This document shows, piece after piece, positions 8,121 through 29,898 of a DNA stretch of 33,092 bases (positions are counted from its first letter, which is position 1; every line of letters begins with the position of its first letter). Location of the stretch: positions 1-33,092 of IMG/VR virus record IMGVR_UViG_3300025904_000008, one strand, 5' to 3'. The notes below the pieces were generated by a model. It was not told where the DNA came from. It was given only the letters and a program-made list of their open reading frames with translations, and made no database searches. Origin of the DNA: a virus. The position numbers and the translations under genes were made by a program.

Positions 8121-8268
8121 CGTGCAAGTACTCCACAGTGACGATCATGCAGTCGTCGTCGGTGATCTCGACCGACTTCATCTGCACAGGGATGTCAGCG
8201 CCTACTGTGATGAAGCGGCGATCAATCTCGTCCCCGTCCTTGTCAACGATCCTCCACACCGTTTTCAC
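8113..8268 (-). CDS. hypothetical protein, 51 aa
   Basis: A 51-residue protein, probably a small beta-barrel (KTVWRIVDKDGDEIDRRF then VEITDDDCMIVTVEYL). The GTG at 8268 is the best start because GGGGGAG lies six bases upstream; it lies inside the end of the preceding HTH gene (26-base overlap). Unknown function. Confidence 0.6.
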   Translation of the reverse strand: MKTVWRIVDKDGDEIDRRFITVGADIPVQMKSVEITDDDCMIVTVEYLHGA

Positions 8269-8503
8269 TGTGCTCCCCCTTCTTGAAGAACTGATCCGCC
8301 TTCTCGATGTCGATGACCGTCCGGCCACACAGACAACGTTCCTTGTCTACGTGGCCTTGTCGGATGTGGTAGTACACGAGCTGAGGTGCGATGCCGCGAA
8401 GCTTGCCGTAGTCCCGAGGCGACAGCTTGGTCGCACCCTCGAGATCGTCCAGCTCCATCTGGTGCATGAGCTCGTCGGTCCTGAAGACCCTGTCGTCGCT
8501 CAT
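8243..8503 (-). CDS. small helix-turn-helix (excisionase/MerR-like) protein
   Basis: An 86-residue protein whose centre (about 28-70) reads SPRDYGKLRGIAPQLVYYHI, then a short basic turn and VIDIEKADQFF. This is the pattern of a MerR/excisionase-type winged HTH that would bind DNA. A CLC pair sits in the wing. The 'xPQ(L/M)(V/M)Y' recognition-helix pattern recurs in the proteins at 11297-11791 and 15738-15986. It is second in the unit driven from 8743. Role as repressor, activator or directionality factor is not decidable here. Confidence 0.65.
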   Translation of the reverse strand: MSDDRVFRTDELMHQMELDDLEGATKLSPRDYGKLRGIAPQLVYYHIRQGHVDKERCLCGRTVIDIEKADQFFKKGEHSENGVEDR

Positions 8504-8742: not shown

Positions 8743-8772
8743 ATTATATAGCAGACCCCTCGGACCAAGCAA
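8743..8772 (-). promoter_or_regulatory. leftward sigma70-like promoter (CTATATAAT class)
   Basis: TTGCTT, 18-base spacer, TATAAT on the minus strand, ending 28 bases before the ATG at 8715. An A-rich tract (minus strand AAAAAGAA, about 8776-8783) lies just upstream of the -35, like an UP element. The 8788-8940 structured element begins 16 bases beyond the -35. Confidence 0.7.
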
Positions 8773-8787
8773 GGGTTCTTTTTATAG

Positions 8788-8940
8788 TCACCCTGTGGTC
8801 TTGGTGAGTTGAGCAGCGGGTAGTCTCTATCGCGTCTAACCTCCTGAGATTACGATTAGACATACAACTACCCCCTCCTCAACGGGTTACTGCGGCGATC
8901 GGTCTAACCGCGGTCTAAGTGATCGCCCAAGACCACAGGT
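8788..8940 (+). repeat. structured dispersed element, copy A
   Basis: This copy shares with 29766-29898 a 15-base block TCACCCTGTGGTCTT (8788-8802), a 21-base block at 8821-8841 (18/21 identical) and a 17-base block at 8902-8918 (14/17). The last two are 81 bases apart in both copies. Inverted repeats are nested: 8792-8804 with 8927-8939 (13 bp), 8809-8814 with 8878-8883, 8818-8824 with 8867-8873, 8834-8839 with 8856-8861, and 8894-8900 with 8921-8927. GTCTAA motifs occur in both orientations. It overlaps the last codons of the gene ending at 8904 and lies just upstream of a promoter. It could be a protein-binding array or a folded RNA. Confidence 0.75.
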
Positions 8941-11856: not shown

Positions 11857-11873
11857 GATCTGCGTTGTTGCGT

Positions 11874-11928
11874 GGGATGCCAGGAATCGAACCCGGGTTG
11901 CTAACGCTCTGCCACTGAGCTACATCCC
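11874..11928 (-). ncRNA. tRNA-like RNA lacking the anticodon arm
   Basis: The minus strand shows an acceptor GGGATG paired to CATCCC, the TA at positions 8-9, a D arm GCTC-AGTGGCA-GAGC and a perfect T arm CCGGG-TTCGATT-CCTGG with the invariant GTTCGA. Between D and T arms only 9 bases (GTTAGCAAC) remain where about 26 would hold the anticodon stem-loop and variable loop. No CCA is encoded. It lies ~45 bases downstream of a leftward promoter and ~80 upstream of the HTH gene. It cannot decode. It may be a decayed tRNA or a tRNA mimic, for example an RNase P/Z processing signal. Confidence 0.75.
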
Positions 11929-11977
11929 TGCCACTCAACTAAGAGACTACGTACTAGCTGCGCTGCTACATGCTTCA

Positions 11978-16230: not shown

Positions 16231-16596
16231 ATGGATGACGAGTTCGAAGGCGTAGAGCACGCGGTCGAGCACGGAGGTGTCGATCCCGAGTCCGCCAGCC
16301 TCTGGGACAACGAGGAGGCCCTCGATGCTCTGCGCGCTGAGCGCCAGGTGAAGACCGAGGAGTCCTACGAGCAGATGACGAAGCGCCTGTTCGAGGAGGC
16401 CTCGCCCCTCGCAGCGCAGAGGATCATCCACATCGCCGTCAAGGGAGCGAACGAGAACACGGCGCTTGCTGCGGCGCGGTACATCACGGACAAGATGTAC
16501 GAGGGCGAACTCGGCGGCGCGAAGCCGCTCTGGGAGAAGATCGTGTACGAGGCCGTCTCACAGGCCGAGCTGCACGCGAACGCGGAGAGGAGCTAG
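16231..16596 (+). CDS. putative terminase small subunit
   Basis: A 121-residue acidic, helical protein. The region ~55-95 (LFEEASPLAAQRIIHIAVKG, NENTALAAARYITDKMYEGE) resembles the helical repeat that phage small terminases use after their DNA-binding segment. It is the first gene of the rightward operon, and the large terminase lies two cistrons on. Start ATG 16231 with GGAGGT upstream. A clear HTH is not visible, so the call rests on pattern and position. Confidence 0.6.
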   Translation: MDDEFEGVEHAVEHGGVDPESASLWDNEEALDALRAERQVKTEESYEQMTKRLFEEASPLAAQRIIHIAVKGANENTALAAARYITDKMYEGELGGAKPLWEKIVYEAVSQAELHANAERS

Positions 16597-20556: not shown

Positions 20557-21113
20557 TGGCACTGCCTGGGGACTGGGATACCGTCCCAGTTAGATACCAC
20601 TCGGTCCTGCTCGACGGGAATCAACCAACCGGGAAACTGGTCATTACCGTCGTGTGGGAGCGTGTCACTGACGACGATGCGACCGATCCGATCTGGATCA
20701 TCGGCGCACCTCTCGAGATCGACCTCGAAGCTTCAGGTCCGACTGACTTCGAGTTGCCGGCTACCGACGATCCCGACATCGATCTGTCGGGCTGGCAGTA
20801 CCAGGCGAAGGAGGTATTCGACTCCGGACCGGGTCAGACGTTCGTATTTCAGGTGCCAATGGCCTCGCTCCCGGGAGGTATCAACCTCGTCCGTGATGCG
20901 GTGTTGGGAGATGATCCAACAGCGGGTGCTCTCATTGACGGCGCTGCAGCGTTGCTGCGGTACATTCCAGAGATTTCTGGCGTATATGCGGCGAGGCCGC
21001 CTTCGACTGGGCCGATCCTGTACATCGGACCGGATTCGCCTCCTGGTGGAGGTACCACTGCTGGTGGTGCAGGTGCAGTAGATGATCTCGACCTTTGGCT
21101 CCAGACAACGTAG
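20556..21113 (+). CDS. minor tail/appendage-like protein
   Basis: A 185-residue beta-rich protein. Its core (GKLVITVVWERV, then FELPATDDPDIDLSGWQYQA, then FVFQVPMASLPGG) matches the N-terminal beta domain seen in many actinophage minor tail or fibre proteins. The C-terminus is Gly/Pro-rich (PDSPPGGGTTAGGAG) like a linker. TAATG-coupled to the portal gene. Its position between portal and protease is unusual for a tail-fibre part. Confidence 0.6.
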   Translation: MALPGDWDTVPVRYHSVLLDGNQPTGKLVITVVWERVTDDDATDPIWIIGAPLEIDLEASGPTDFELPATDDPDIDLSGWQYQAKEVFDSGPGQTFVFQVPMASLPGGINLVRDAVLGDDPTAGALIDGAAALLRYIPEISGVYAARPPSTGPILYIGPDSPPGGGTTAGGAGAVDDLDLWLQTT

Positions 21114-21121
21114 GAGAGGAC

Positions 21122-21415
21122 ATGCCAGAAATCACGAAGCGGAAGGTGACCATGCGGTCGGTTTCGCTCTCAGGTACGACGAACAACAAGGGTGAGCCCG
21201 AGTACATCATCCATGAAGCTGTCGATTACGTACGTCCAGACCACCTGGATGCGTACGTAGCCGATGCGAGGACGCGTTGGCAGTCGGTGACGGTCTCGAA
21301 GGAGCCTGACGCCGGTCCGGGTGGCTACGACGGTGCTACTCACGTACCGGAACACCTCGATCTGCCTGATGCGGGCGTTACTTACCCGGCGAACTCGAAG
21401 CTGAAGGAGCTCTGA
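21122..21415 (+). CDS. hypothetical virion-region protein, 97 aa
   Basis: A 97-residue protein (MPEITKRKVTMRSVSLSGTT...) with a C-terminal segment rich in Asp, Gly and Pro. ATG 21122 has TAGGAGAGG upstream. It sits in the appendage-like block, so a structural or assembly role is plausible but unproven. Confidence 0.65.
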   Translation: MPEITKRKVTMRSVSLSGTTNNKGEPEYIIHEAVDYVRPDHLDAYVADARTRWQSVTVSKEPDAGPGGYDGATHVPEHLDLPDAGVTYPANSKLKEL

Positions 21416-21416
21416 C

Positions 21417-21767
21417 ATGGCAGTCGATGGCACAGCCATGAAGAACATCCTGTCGGATGCGTACAAGGGCTCCGCGGCCTATCTGTCGGCGTTCACCGCG
21501 ATGGGTTCGGCAGGATCAGCAGGCACTGAGGTCTCGGGTGGTTCGCCTGCCTACGCACGCAAGGCGCTCTCGTGGGGCTCCAGCTCGGGTGGCGTTGTAT
21601 CGGCGTCGCAGGTGACGTTCGACATCCCGGCGAGCACGACAGTCGTCGGTGTAGGCGTCCACTCAGCTGTCACCGCCGGTACCTACTACGACAAGACCAC
21701 AGTGACGAACCAGACGTTCGCCTCACAGGGCACGTACGGAGTGACTGCAACCTTCACCGAGACGTGA
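21417..21767 (+). CDS. putative tail-appendage structural protein
   Basis: A 116-residue beta-rich protein. 'VSGGSPAYARKALSWGSSSGG' followed by VTFDIPASTTVVGVGVHSAV and GTYYDKT is a frame found in small tail/appendage proteins of many phages. ATG 21417 lies one base after the previous stop, with AAGGAG upstream. Family role known only in outline. Confidence 0.65.
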   Translation: MAVDGTAMKNILSDAYKGSAAYLSAFTAMGSAGSAGTEVSGGSPAYARKALSWGSSSGGVVSASQVTFDIPASTTVVGVGVHSAVTAGTYYDKTTVTNQTFASQGTYGVTATFTET

Positions 21768-21770
21768 TCC

Positions 21771-22565
21771 ATGACGGTCACTCGACGGGGAGCGTTCGCA
21801 ACTACAGTGCCTGCAACAGCTGGTGCTGAAGCTGCAACACTCCCAACTCATCAAACGGGTGACCTACTTCTGGTTGCGGAGCTAGGCAAGTACACCGGAG
21901 CCACTCGGCCGATGGGTCTAACGGCTGGGTGGACGATGGTTGCTAATGGCGGATTTGCGACTGGGCAGTCAAACGGTAACGATACGGGAACTTGTCACTT
22001 CCAGATTGCGGCGAAGGTCGCGGCCTCATCGTCGGAGACGAACCCGACGTTTACGCCAGGTGCAACAGCACCTAACTCTTGGGAGTTTATTGCTGGTGCA
22101 TACATCTTCCCGAACGGGATGAAGGATGCGGTAGGCTCGATCCCTGTTGTATCGGCAGTCGACACAGTGACTACCTCGCCATTGTCAGCATCACCTGCAG
22201 CGTTCGGTGCAGGTGCACCGCTGCCTGGCGATTTGATTGTCATGTTCGGTATCACACCGACTGACACAGGTACGGCGCTCGGAGCAGTGTCCTTGACGAA
22301 TGCAGGCCTCTCAGGCGGAACTGTAACAGGTGGCTCACTAGTCAACAACGCTCTAGGCCAGGATACGGGCGCCGCAATGGCTGAGTGGGCAGGATTTACG
22401 GGCGCAGAATCTGGTGCATATTCGGCGTCGATGACTATTACCAGTAGCACGGCGCAGTACGGAGGTATTGTTCTGGTGTCGCTGCGTGAGGCAGCTGCAG
22501 CTGCTGCAGCAAGTCTGGTTCCGCTCAACCCCACTAGTCAGCTCCTACCCATCCTTACGAGGTGA
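21771..22565 (+). CDS. putative minor tail/fibre protein, beta-sandwich
   Basis: A 264-residue protein rich in Ala, Thr, Gly and Ser, with 'TGDLLLVAELGKY', 'GWTMVANGG', 'FQIAAKVA', 'WEFIAGAYIFPNG' and 'YGGIVLVSL'. This is the pattern of a jelly-roll-like domain common in phage fibre and appendage proteins. It ends in a low-complexity Ala tract and LVPLNPTSQLLPILTR. Probably displayed on the virion. Confidence 0.65.
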   Translation: MTVTRRGAFATTVPATAGAEAATLPTHQTGDLLLVAELGKYTGATRPMGLTAGWTMVANGGFATGQSNGNDTGTCHFQIAAKVAASSSETNPTFTPGATAPNSWEFIAGAYIFPNGMKDAVGSIPVVSAVDTVTTSPLSASPAAFGAGAPLPGDLIVMFGITPTDTGTALGAVSLTNAGLSGGTVTGGSLVNNALGQDTGAAMAEWAGFTGAESGAYSASMTITSSTAQYGGIVLVSLREAAAAAAASLVPLNPTSQLLPILTR

Positions 22566-22569
22566 TCCA

Positions 22570-23055
22570 ATGATTGAACTGTCCCGTTCCTACGTCGCGC
22601 CGATTGTCATTAGCACGGCCTTCACTGCCCAGATCGACGTCTTTGAGATTCTGGCCGCTTCCGGCAAGCCATGCGTTCTGCTCGGTTGGGAGTTCGGTCA
22701 GCTCACCGAAGTTGGTGACGCGCAGGAAGAGCAGCTGCAGATGGCTTTGAAGCGCTGCGTTGGTGGTACTTCAGGTTCTGGTGGCGGTACATCAACCTTC
22801 CAGTCCACGCGGCCCAACGACACAGCTGCTGGCGTGACGATGGAAACCGGCAATACGACTAAGTACGCAGCTGGTACTGTTGTTGAGATGGCACGCTTCA
22901 ACTGGAACGTACGCATGAACTGCCTCTACGTGCCTGTGCCAGAAGAGCGAATTGTCTTCGACGCTAGCACGCGCATGGTGCTCGAGCTGGTCACCACGCC
23001 GGCCGACTCGATCGGTGGAATCGCCGGTCGCGTGTCGGTGGGAGAGATCATCTGA
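22570..23055 (+). CDS. putative virion structural protein, 161 aa
   Basis: A 161-residue protein with 'AQIDVFEILAASGKPCVLLG', 'QLTEVGDAQEEQLQMALKR', a Gly/Ser-rich linker, 'WNVRMNCLYVPVPEE' and a final 'LVTTPADSIGGIAGRVSVGE'. That arrangement recurs in small beta-sandwich virion proteins of phages and prophages. Start ATG 22570, five bases after the previous stop. Exact location in the particle unknown. Confidence 0.65.
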   Translation: MIELSRSYVAPIVISTAFTAQIDVFEILAASGKPCVLLGWEFGQLTEVGDAQEEQLQMALKRCVGGTSGSGGGTSTFQSTRPNDTAAGVTMETGNTTKYAAGTVVEMARFNWNVRMNCLYVPVPEERIVFDASTRMVLELVTTPADSIGGIAGRVSVGEII

Positions 23056-23058
23056 CCC

Positions 23059-23811
23059 ATGTCCGGTATCTTCTACCGGACTTACCTTTGGCTGCCGCCG
23101 AGGGTCCCGCCGGTCTTCAGTGCGGCTGGTGCGCCAGCTTATACGGACGCGGCTGCCTTCAGTGGCGCAGGATCTCTGTCAGCTCTAGGTACTCCAGCCG
23201 TTGCTGTCTCTGCAGGCTTCTCAGGCAGTGGACAGCTGAGTATTGTTGCTGTCCCTGGGTTCGTTGGCGCAGCTGCCTTTAGCGGATCAGGACAGCTCAG
23301 TGTCGTTACGAAGCCTGGACTCACCGACAATGCAGCCTTTAGTGGTTCGGGACAGCTTTCGGCAGTTACTAAGCCAGGTTTCACAGGTGCTGCTGCGTTC
23401 GGCGGCAGCGGCCAGCTAAGCACGACGCAGAAGCCTATGGTCGCTGTCGCAGTTGCCTTTAGCGGCACAGGTACCTTGGCTGTCATTGCTACACCTGCGT
23501 TCGCTGTCGCAGTGAACTTCTCAGGCACTGGCCTACTCAGTGCAGCCGGTAAACCAGGCTTTGCTGGCAATGCAGTCTTCTCAGGCCTCGGCTCTCTGAC
23601 TGTGGTCGTTGTTCCTCGATTCGCGGACAATGCCAGCTTTAGTGGGTCCGGACAATTGAGTGTTGCAGCACAGGCTGCCCTATTCGGGGCAGCTGCGTTC
23701 TCTGGCGATGGCCAATTGACGGTTGTAGTAGCACCTTCAGGCATTGATCAGGAGTACCTGTACTTGCTCGCTACTAGCGGACCAGTACTTCTAGCGTTGC
23801 ACCAGTTGTAG
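23059..23811 (+). CDS. 20-residue-repeat fibre/appendage protein
   Basis: A 250-residue protein. After ~25 residues, residues 26-225 are ten 20-residue repeats of the form P-x-F-x-x-x-A-x-F-S-G-S-G-x-L-S-x-V-x-x; a short tail (IDQEYLYLLATSGPVLLALHQ) follows. The regular Phe, Gly and hydrophobic spacing suggests stacked beta turns or strands in an extended fibre. It is the last gene before an internal promoter. Family-level function (host contact or decoration) is inferred. Confidence 0.7.
   Translation: MSGIFYRTYLWLPPRVPPVFSAAGAPAYTDAAAFSGAGSLSALGTPAVAVSAGFSGSGQLSIVAVPGFVGAAAFSGSGQLSVVTKPGLTDNAAFSGSGQLSAVTKPGFTGAAAFGGSGQLSTTQKPMVAVAVAFSGTGTLAVIATPAFAVAVNFSGTGLLSAAGKPGFAGNAVFSGLGSLTVVVVPRFADNASFSGSGQLSVAAQAALFGAAAFSGDGQLTVVVAPSGIDQEYLYLLATSGPVLLALHQL
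23134..23733 (+). repeat. ten tandem 60-bp coding repeats
   Basis: The repeats of the 23059-23811 gene are visible at DNA level as 60-bp units with recurring TTYAGYGGHWCVGGACAG-like cores. The third to fifth units are most alike. The copy number could change by slippage or recombination. Confidence 0.75.
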
Positions 23812-23835
23812 GAGGTTACTGTTATATACGAACCG

Positions 23836-23865
23836 TTGTCCTCCCAGTAAGGAAGACGTTATATT
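23836..23865 (+). promoter_or_regulatory. internal rightward promoter before head genes
   Basis: TTGTCC (23836-23841), 18-base spacer, TATATT (23860-23865), 26 bases before the protease ATG. It lies in the only gene-free gap (23812-23890) between the fibre-like block and the head genes, so capsid genes may get extra transcription. Confidence 0.55.
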
Positions 23866-23890
23866 TATCACACCACGAGGAGGTTCCCAT

Positions 23891-25060
23891 ATGAACAGAT
23901 TCGGCTATCTGGCCGATCTGGCGGGCGCGACGTTCGATGACGTGACCCGTACTACGTGGATCCAAGCATTGCCTCTCGGCACCTACGACCACCCGGTCTA
24001 CGGCACGATCGAGGCAACGCCTGAGAAGGTCCAGACGATGGCGATGAACGTCAACAACGGCGTTCGCGAGACCGAGCTGGACATCGACTACGACCACAAG
24101 GCGCAGGACGGCAAGGCCGCCGGCTGGATCAAGCAGGCTCAGGCCCGTGACAACGGTCTCTGGGTCCTGGTCGAGTGGACGAAGAAGGCGTACAAGGCCA
24201 TCAAGGACAAGGAGTACAGGTACTTCTCGCCCGAGATGGTCGACGAGTGGCAACACCCCAAGACGAAGGCCGTGCACAAGCACGTCCTTTTTGGTGGCGG
24301 GATTACCAACAGGCCGTTCCTGAAGGACATCCTCCCACTGAACATGTCAGAGCTGTTCGCCGAGCAGCACCCACAGGAAGGAACAAGCATGGATCCGAAG
24401 CTGCTTCGCAAGCTGCTCGGCCTTCCGGAGGACGCGACCGAGGACCAGGTCACCGAGGCGGTCTCCAAGCTGCCCGACGACGCGGTCATCGGAGCGCCAC
24501 CGGTACCCGCCGAGCCGCAGACCCCGACCCCGGGCGACGGCATCGAGACGGACCATCAGGTCGTCGCGGCTGCCGAGGGTCTTCCCCAGGAGGTGATCCG
24601 TCTCAAGGAGTCCGACAACCCCGACGTCAAGGCCCTGGCGACGGCGTTCGAGGGACTCTTCGTGCAGAACCAGACCCTGTCGACAGCTCTTCAGCTCTCC
24701 GAGACGGCTCGTACCGTCCAGAAGCTCACGGAGCCCGTGGACGGCAAGGCTCTGCCGGCGGGAACCGTCACCAAGCTGAACGAGGTGCTCCTGGCGCCTT
24801 CGCAGAAGGGGATCGTCGAGCTGATGGAGGGGCTGGTCAAGACCGGCTTCGTCAACACCAAGGAGACGATCACCGACGACGCGCGTCAGCGTGAGGGCAA
24901 CACCGACGCGATCAAGCAGTTCACCGACAAGGTGGACGAGAAGCTGAAGAACGACGAGAACCTCCAGTACGCGGACGCGGTGACGGCCGTGGCCAAGGAG
25001 GACCCGAAGCTCTTCGCCGAGTACCGTGGCGCGTCGTACGCTGACGCCCCGAGCAACTGA
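23891..25060 (+). CDS. Mu I-like prohead protease with scaffold domain
   Basis: A 389-residue protein. Residues ~15-165 match the Mu-like prohead protease family (PF10123): YGTIEATPEKVQTMAMNVNN, ELDIDYDHKAQDGKAAGWI, YRYFSPEMVDEW, FGGGITNRPFLKD. The remaining ~220 residues are acidic and helical (DNPDVKALATAFEGLF, FTDKVDEKLKNDEN), as in a scaffold. The protease would digest scaffold during capsid maturation. GAGGAGG lies before the ATG. The decoration and major capsid genes follow. Confidence 0.88.
   Translation: MNRFGYLADLAGATFDDVTRTTWIQALPLGTYDHPVYGTIEATPEKVQTMAMNVNNGVRETELDIDYDHKAQDGKAAGWIKQAQARDNGLWVLVEWTKKAYKAIKDKEYRYFSPEMVDEWQHPKTKAVHKHVLFGGGITNRPFLKDILPLNMSELFAEQHPQEGTSMDPKLLRKLLGLPEDATEDQVTEAVSKLPDDAVIGAPPVPAEPQTPTPGDGIETDHQVVAAAEGLPQEVIRLKESDNPDVKALATAFEGLFVQNQTLSTALQLSETARTVQKLTEPVDGKALPAGTVTKLNEVLLAPSQKGIVELMEGLVKTGFVNTKETITDDARQREGNTDAIKQFTDKVDEKLKNDENLQYADAVTAVAKEDPKLFAEYRGASYADAPSN
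24389..25060 (+). CDS. nested in-frame scaffolding protein
   Basis: An ATG at 24389 (residue 167 of the protease, MDPKLLRKLLGL) is preceded by CAGGAAGGA at ideal spacing, so the C-terminal 223 residues can be made alone. Mu makes its scaffold gpZ from within gene I in the same manner. The product is acidic and helical as expected. The start signal is seen directly; expression is inferred from the Mu precedent. Confidence 0.7.
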   Translation: MDPKLLRKLLGLPEDATEDQVTEAVSKLPDDAVIGAPPVPAEPQTPTPGDGIETDHQVVAAAEGLPQEVIRLKESDNPDVKALATAFEGLFVQNQTLSTALQLSETARTVQKLTEPVDGKALPAGTVTKLNEVLLAPSQKGIVELMEGLVKTGFVNTKETITDDARQREGNTDAIKQFTDKVDEKLKNDENLQYADAVTAVAKEDPKLFAEYRGASYADAPSN

Positions 25061-25074
25061 GGAGGTGACTGACC

Positions 25075-25491
25075 ATGGGTGTGGGTGCTGACCACGTACT
25101 CACCAAGGGCCACCTGGCCACCGGTGCGACGGCTTACAAGGCCGGCGAAGCAGTGGTGTCCAGTGGCGACGGGACGAAGGTCGCGCGAGCGACTTCCGCC
25201 GGCGCCAAGCTCCGTGGAGTGTGCCAGGAGAACCTGGACACGAACCGATTGGCGTCCGGTAAGGCCGTCGTCGGTGTGAACATCCTCGGCATTTGCCGAG
25301 CCCTCGCCGGCGGCGCCATCGCTGTCGACGATCGTGTGACCAACGACACCACTGCGCGGTTCGTCACCGTCAACGCGGCCGTTGGGTCCAAGGAGTGTGC
25401 AGGCATTGCCCTCACCGCCGCTACCGGCGCGGGCGTGTACTTCGACCTGCTGCTCACCCCGTACGGTTCCGTCAACACGGCCGTCAGCTGA
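25075..25491 (+). CDS. capsid decoration protein (DUF2190-like)
   Basis: A 138-residue protein rich in Ala, Gly, Val and Thr: HLATGATAYKAGEAVVSSG, then AVGSKECAGIALTAATGAG and VYFDLLLTPYG. This pattern and the position immediately before the major capsid gene fit DUF2190/gpD-like head decoration proteins. GAGGAGGTG upstream of the ATG. Confidence 0.75.
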   Translation: MGVGADHVLTKGHLATGATAYKAGEAVVSSGDGTKVARATSAGAKLRGVCQENLDTNRLASGKAVVGVNILGICRALAGGAIAVDDRVTNDTTARFVTVNAAVGSKECAGIALTAATGAGVYFDLLLTPYGSVNTAVS

Positions 25492-29765: not shown

Positions 29766-29898
29766 TCACCCTGTGGTCTTCGTGGTGAGCGCTACCTCGT
29801 CTATATCGAGTCTAACCGGCTTAGACTTGAGAAAGACCACAGTAGCGCCCACCCGGAGACTACTACGCGGTTGGAAAGTCTAATCGCAATCTAAACAG
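29766..29898 (+). repeat. structured dispersed element, copy B
   Basis: It starts two bases after the tail-tube stop and ends before the chaperone Shine-Dalgarno. The 15-base block (29766-29780), the 21-base block (29797-29817) and the 17-base block (29878-29894) correspond to copy A, with the same 81-base interval. Inverted repeats: 29771-29780 with 29833-29842 (10 bp), hairpin 29806-29815 with 29821-29830 (10 bp, one G.U), and 29784-29795 with 29842-29853 (11 of 12). The first and third pairs interleave, so they form a pseudoknot or alternative folds. GTCTAA motifs repeat at 11-base spacing. Confidence 0.75.

Follow-up and report, generated by a model that had tools for sequence, protein, structure and literature searches.

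BldC and Xis line up head to tail on direct repeats, and the arrays recognized by BldC, lambda Xis and Pukovnik Xis are composed of short direct repeats that lie about one helical turn apart. The P1 parS site is asymmetric, has a bendable spacer with protein boxes to its left and right, and involves one conserved and one species-specific contact. The stoperators of mycobacteriophage L5 and the CIRs of phiC31 are single sites of 13-17 bp in temperate phages, where they are repeated in intergenic positions scattered through the genome, and the put RNAs of HK022 are intergenic as well and occur more than once per phage genome. In integrons, the R''/R' boxes of attC sites follow the consensus RYYYAAC/GTTRRRY, and attC clusters without an integrase exist, so that the absence of an integrase is not decisive on its own. 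Sites of the attC type, with a GTTRRRY box, have been described in lytic phages (PMC9892861).

The element analysed here is roughly 110-150 bases long, sits between gene blocks and is present twice in an IMG/VR virus record of 33,092 bases, the whole of which is the stretch of DNA that was analysed and is referred to below as the window. As in the arrays of BldC and of the two Xis proteins, short direct repeats are placed about one helical turn apart, but those sites are single arrays, whereas the element combines three pairs with a fixed spacer, occurs 2-5 times per genome and is a putative binding site; a further likeness to MerR-like binders lies in the predicted fold of the protein whose gene adjoins copy 1. 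The arrangement of boxes on either side of a spacer is like that of P1-type parS, from which the element differs in box sequence and spacing, in its multiple copies per genome and in belonging to phages that appear to be lytic and in which no ParA/ParB was noticed. The L5 stoperators and phiC31 CIRs share its repeated, scattered intergenic placement; unlike them, the element spans 110-150 bp with several boxes, and no integrase was found here. Unlike the put RNAs of HK022, it shows no preference of strand or orientation, is located inside operons and has no copy-specific pairing. Its GTCTAAC/GTTAGAC boxes fit the attC consensus, and inverted boxes of the attC type surround the spacer in many copies with the +- arrangement, but not in the ++, -+ or -- copies; the fixed spacer, the extra third pair, the occurrence of any pair orientation and the lack of an integrase and of a cassette array set it apart from integron attC. 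Searches of Rfam, of cultured-phage DNA and of the full-text literature gave no match to the element and no description of it. The Tetrasphaera phage TJE1, suggested as a cultured carrier by its published attC sites, was found to contain no arrays; a published palindrome of TJE1, TGTTAGACCGATCGGTCCAAC (L217, 49198), resembles GGTTAGACCGATCGCC of window copy 1.

The two copies in the window and their recurrence among relatives

The sequence-only reading had described two distant copies of an element with shared sequence blocks, and the comparison of the two intervals bore this out: positions 8788-8802 and 29766-29780 are identical (15/15), a 21-base block agrees at 18/21 positions (8821-8841 and 29797-29817), a 17-base block agrees at 14/17 (8902-8918 and 29878-29894), and the starts of the latter two blocks are 81 bp apart in copy 1 and copy 2 alike. 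GTCTAA is not enriched across the whole window, with nine occurrences compared with 8.2 expected; seven of the nine fall within the two intervals. Copy 2 conforms to the general plan of the element (Table 1). In copy 1 the 68-bp box distance is retained, but the inner box expected at 8845 is degenerate and one box sits within the spacer; most elements follow the spacer rule more closely than this copy does. The exact 15-base 5' block had no other occurrence in IMG/VR. The edges of elements carry a further recurrent motif, GACCACAGGG/CCCTGTGGTC (8788-8802 and 29766-29780 in the window, and the sense 3' end of many elements in relatives), which in most relatives lies on the side where the next gene starts; it is inverted in window copy 2 and in L038.

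Table 1. Features of the two copies and of their surroundings, in window coordinates.
Feature	Position	Strand	Remark
Small winged-helix (MerR/Xis/BldC-like) protein gene	8243..8503	-	candidate binder; homologue adjoins site c in relatives
Promoter-like TTGCTT-N18-TATAAT	8743..8772	-	~15 bp outside copy 1, directed at winged-helix gene
Copy 1 of element (site c)	8788..8940	.	between - strand genes
Copy 1 left terminal inverted-repeat arm CCTGTGGTCTTGG	8792..8804	+	13/13 complementary to right arm
Copy 1 box pair GTCTct..GTCTAA	8823..8839	+	11 bp apart; first box degenerate
Copy 1 inverted box TTAGAC	8856..8861	-	
Copy 1 box pair GTCTAA N5 GTCTAA	8902..8918	+	11 bp apart
Copy 1 right terminal inverted-repeat arm CCAAGACCACAGG	8927..8939	-	perfect 13-bp partner of left arm
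Copy 2 of element (site a)	29766..29898	.	directly past stop codon of 28826-29764 gene, ahead of 29916 start
Copy 2 arm CTGTGGTCTT	29771..29780	+	perfect 10-bp inverted repeat
Copy 2 box pair GTCTAt..GTCTAA (pair 3)	29799..29815	+	
Copy 2 box TTAGAC of pair 2	29821..29826	-	inverted relative to pair 3
Copy 2 fixed-length spacer between inner box cores	29826..29878	.	53 bp
Copy 2 arm AAGACCACAG	29833..29842	-	perfect 10-bp partner of 29771..29780
Copy 2 box pair GTCTAA N5 aTCTAA (pair 1)	29878..29894	+	

The genes recognized in the window encode a terminase, a portal protein, a Mu-like head protease, a helicase, an exonuclease and a Sak4-like protein. Since the portal is far closer to IMG/VR loci (42-59% identity to 33 loci) than to cultured phages (about 32% identity for the best among the matches listed, from Corynebacterium and Arthrobacter phages), the IMG/VR relatives were used for comparison; these are uncultured metagenomic records of uncertain completeness. 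No Phage_integrase (PF00589) or Resolvase domain was found in 18 family records, which are possibly incomplete; the phages of the family look lytic, and both lysogeny and site-specific recombination are unlikely because of this absence. The sole Rfam match in the window is a tRNA (11872-11929, - strand, 37.7 bits). From sequences read by eye, relatives (L113/L114 of G014, 21014-25262, and others) apparently encode QueC, QueD, QueE, FolE and a DpdA-like protein, a set that would point to phage DNA modified with 7-deazaguanine.

A uniform caller returned 48 arrays in 21 records (1.07 Mb) compared with six in dinucleotide-shuffled DNA. It called none in G022 or G026; on reading, the single call in G021 looks genuine, whereas both calls in G008 seem to be due to chance. 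The pattern matched 13 of 21 relatives, whereas a reversed-pattern control matched one record; it also matched eight of 12 further records and nine of nine that had been picked because they matched. An initial loose pattern scan gave mostly simple tandem repeats, a geometry-based scan of IMG/VR gave 35 stretches, about 22 of which were judged genuine by reading, and blastn against cultured phages found no relatives of the element. Most complete-looking genomes of 45-73 kb hold 2-5 copies, with five in each of two larger ones, of 62.7 and 72.8 kb, and the relatives that lack GTCTAA arrays show no evident substitute box. The sequence-only reading had looked to related phages for further copies with conserved spacing, and such copies are what the relatives hold.

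Three recurrent sites were labelled by hand in complete-looking relatives. Site a lies in the structural operon, past a tail-tube-like gene (a name inferred from position and sequence style, for which PHROGs gave no match) or ahead of the M.VYSPSGSGNVHVDR gene; site b lies upstream of or near a RuvC-like gene; and site c, the place of copy 1, lies upstream of a winged-helix gene of about 90 residues. The syntenic position of copy 2 is occupied by a like array in L038-L040 and by a divergent one in L008, and arrays are also found at other positions. Sense was assigned by hand judgement from gene runs and reading.

Architecture, polarity and evolution of the element

Same-strand box spacings in 31 elements show peaks at 10-12, 56-58, 67-68, 77-79 and 87-90 bp. 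The GTCTAA boxes about 11 bases apart, some of them inverted, that had been noticed in the window reflect a family rule of direct pairs with a spacing of 10-12 bp; two of the pairs stand side by side in opposite orientations, and the third pair is located across the spacer. The fixed internal geometry claimed for the two window copies likewise extends to the family, as neighbouring boxes flank the long spacer in 28 of the 31 elements, with core-to-core distances of 56 bp (10 elements), 57 bp (16) and 58 bp (2) and spacer lengths of 51 or 52 bp in 26 elements and 53 bp in two. The length of 51-53 bp does not depend on how the boxes are oriented, since it is found with all four arrangements, be they convergent, divergent or in one direction. 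Since the first elements were found by the density of boxes and not by the length of the spacer, this rule is not built into the set of 31 elements.

The spacer also carries sequence information, part of which is due to sequence shared among related genomes: the alignment of 47 spacers in their best orientation, after removal of eight spurious spacers by hand, contains 12.35 bits compared with 4.12 +/- 0.11 for shuffled spacers given the same treatment, and the spacers of the first 28 elements contain 15.3 bits compared with 5.8 +/- 0.3 after shuffling. In 26 of 32 cases the orientation of the spacer, as judged only from its own sequence, predicts correctly on which side the third pair is found (Fisher p = 0.001). 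The element is therefore polar, and its order is pair 1, spacer, pair 2 and pair 3, with pairs 2 and 3 mutually inverted.

Each spacer has a sequence that is characteristic of its genome, with similar arms inverted at its ends. The mean similarity of spacers is 8.96 within a genome versus 0.69 when one site is compared across genomes (p = 4e-13, an optimistic value because the pairs of copies are not independent), and between genomes spacers of the same site are no more alike than those of different sites. Near-identical spacers within a genome are absent, the best score being 19 for spacers of 51-53 bases, which would argue against recent copying and in favour of a shared genome-specific partner. 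Some relatives lack the element, or have a reduced form of it, at individual sites, so that no one copy is essential everywhere. At the tail site of G003 (L105, ~16355-16414) just the remnant GTCTAACAAATAACCACAGG is present where a relative holds the full element, which looks like the result of an internal deletion between the element ends, and in G025 and G026 the portal site is without the element and retains a promoter-like TATAAT.

Repeated boxes at helical spacing with fixed distances between them are one mark by which a multi-box protein-binding DNA site was to be recognized, and both are found here. In our reading each of the two intervals is probably a single copy of a polar DNA site with several protein-binding boxes, of the operator, centromere or origin type, with a probability of roughly 0.7.

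Candidate binding protein

As judged from its predicted fold, the small winged-helix protein whose gene neighbours copy 1 is perhaps the binder of the element. The protein and its homologues have no match in Pfam or PHROGs, a tblastn search of cultured phages found no relatives, and a profile search of the PDB with the alignment gave chance matches only. Its AlphaFold model (pLDDT 77.5) comprises a helix-turn-helix and a wing, and the nearest solved folds identified by Foldseek were those of BldC-DNA, RacA-DNA, Pukovnik Xis and RdfS, with weak E-values (best 0.008). Since BldC and Xis occupy direct repeats head to tail, a winged-helix fold suits the direct box pairs. G022 and G026, both of which are without an array, have the gene as well, so that it does not strictly track the element, and no gene family does so across the records. 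In the mechanism that we propose, a small winged-helix protein, which may be this neighbour of copy 1, would sit head to tail on the direct boxes, the two ends of the element would meet across the spacer, and the spacer would be bent or would be held by a second, genome-specific contact.

Possible purposes of the site

Among the purposes that such a protein-binding site may serve, control of transcription is ranked first, bridging or partition second and replication third. Setting the transcription of the neighbouring gene block, including that of the regulator itself, is the single most likely purpose, although this assignment is tentative and we would give it somewhat less than an even chance. 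Promoter-like sites adjoin copy 1 and the portal-site copies G007a and G010a, and most elements and most promoters lie apart. The suggestion that there is one element per operon fits poorly, as the copies are located inside operons and often far from promoters. The phages share a promoter-like sequence, TTGNNN-N18-TATAAT, which is found in the window at 2754, 8743 and 14421 (-), and a spacing of 18 is common among exact TATAAT matches.

A less probable purpose, though one that should be kept in view, is that of a centromere or bridging site of the parS/ram-like type, which would gather or place the phage DNA by means of copies spread round the genome. In nine genomes 3-5 copies are found about 8-24 kb apart, with five in the two largest, and the largest gap between copies is below the random expectation in each of these genomes (P = 0.02-0.13, for genomes that are related and thus not independent and for maps assumed to be circular). 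RacA is among the fold neighbours of the winged-helix protein, and P1 parS likewise has two ends and a second contact of narrow specificity, comparable to the genome-specific one proposed here; the lytic appearance of the phages and the absence of an integrase speak against this purpose. It is possible, with a slightly smaller chance than that of the centromere, that the element is a distributed DNA-organizing site, a polar docking site that a family of lytic phages would place along its genome at intervals of about 10-20 kb. If this is true, the protein contacts of these docking sites co-evolve genome by genome, the sites serve to gather, segregate or order the genome in replication or packaging, and they form a phage counterpart of the multi-copy centromere, of which no description was found in the literature and databases searched.

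It is doubtful that the element acts as a multi-copy replication origin or initiator-binding site. The boxes flanking a spacer, together with a third, adjacent inverted box, recall the oriS of HSV, and one copy is located upstream of the replication gene block; however, the GC skew tracks the direction of the genes, with no switch tied to the elements, the spacers are not AT-rich by eye, and no initiator protein was recognized.

A structured cis-acting RNA formed from an intergenic transcript, such as an antitermination, RNase III-processing or translational element, is improbable. Both window copies fold far better than shuffled sequences on either strand (z from -4.4 to -6.3), 11 bp also corresponds to one turn of the A-form, the elements are situated inside operons, and complementarity between the spacer arms exceeds the chance level between elements (z = 4.1). 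The sense strand, however, folds more strongly in only 17 of the 31 elements (Wilcoxon p = 0.36), and by hand count the spacer runs along transcription at site c (9/10) and against it at site b (9/11). Moreover, the length of the spacer is fixed even where its flanking boxes are direct repeats, which are unable to pair, and Rfam 15 gives the window no match to a described RNA family at the element. The arm-arm score is 2.39 within a copy versus 2.70 between copies of one genome, and since the arms match between copies at least as well as within them, the complementarity is most readily explained by a recognition sequence repeated in inverted orientation and not by pairing. The sequence-only reading had proposed a folded or a protein-bound structure: the 11-bp direct pairs, the rigid spacer, the polarity and the multiplicity favour its protein-bound DNA, whereas its folded or antitermination RNA, likened to HK022 put, lost ground to the lack of strand preference, the opposite orientations and a complementarity that is not copy-specific.

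The least probable alternative is that the element marks one end of a small mobile element or serves in recombination as an att, res or integron attC site, in keeping with boxes that fit the attC R''/R' consensus and have a second box 10-12 bp away, with presence and absence among relatives, including the remnant GTCTAACAAATAACCACAGG in G003, and with the attC sites reported in lytic phages, but opposed by the absence of Phage_integrase and Resolvase domains from the 18 family records, by boxes that are direct within a pair and not inverted as in recombinase core sites, by a spacer that is fixed, unlike the variable terminal structure of attC, by the many genes between copies 8-24 kb apart, by the absence of near-identical copies as recent transposition would leave (best within-genome spacer score 19), and by the absence of arrays from TJE1, the actinobacterial phage of PMC9892861.

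In conclusion, the preferred reading, a polar multi-box protein-binding DNA site, describes a large and strictly measured site that is common to uncultured phages and absent from the databases and papers searched. Its copies keep each other's spacer sequence within a genome, and a given site does not keep it across relatives, which points to a fast-evolving partner, and the element offers a natural system for the study of co-evolution between a DNA site and its binding protein. The role of the element would tell how phages without recognizable lysogeny genes coordinate their gene blocks or their whole genome.
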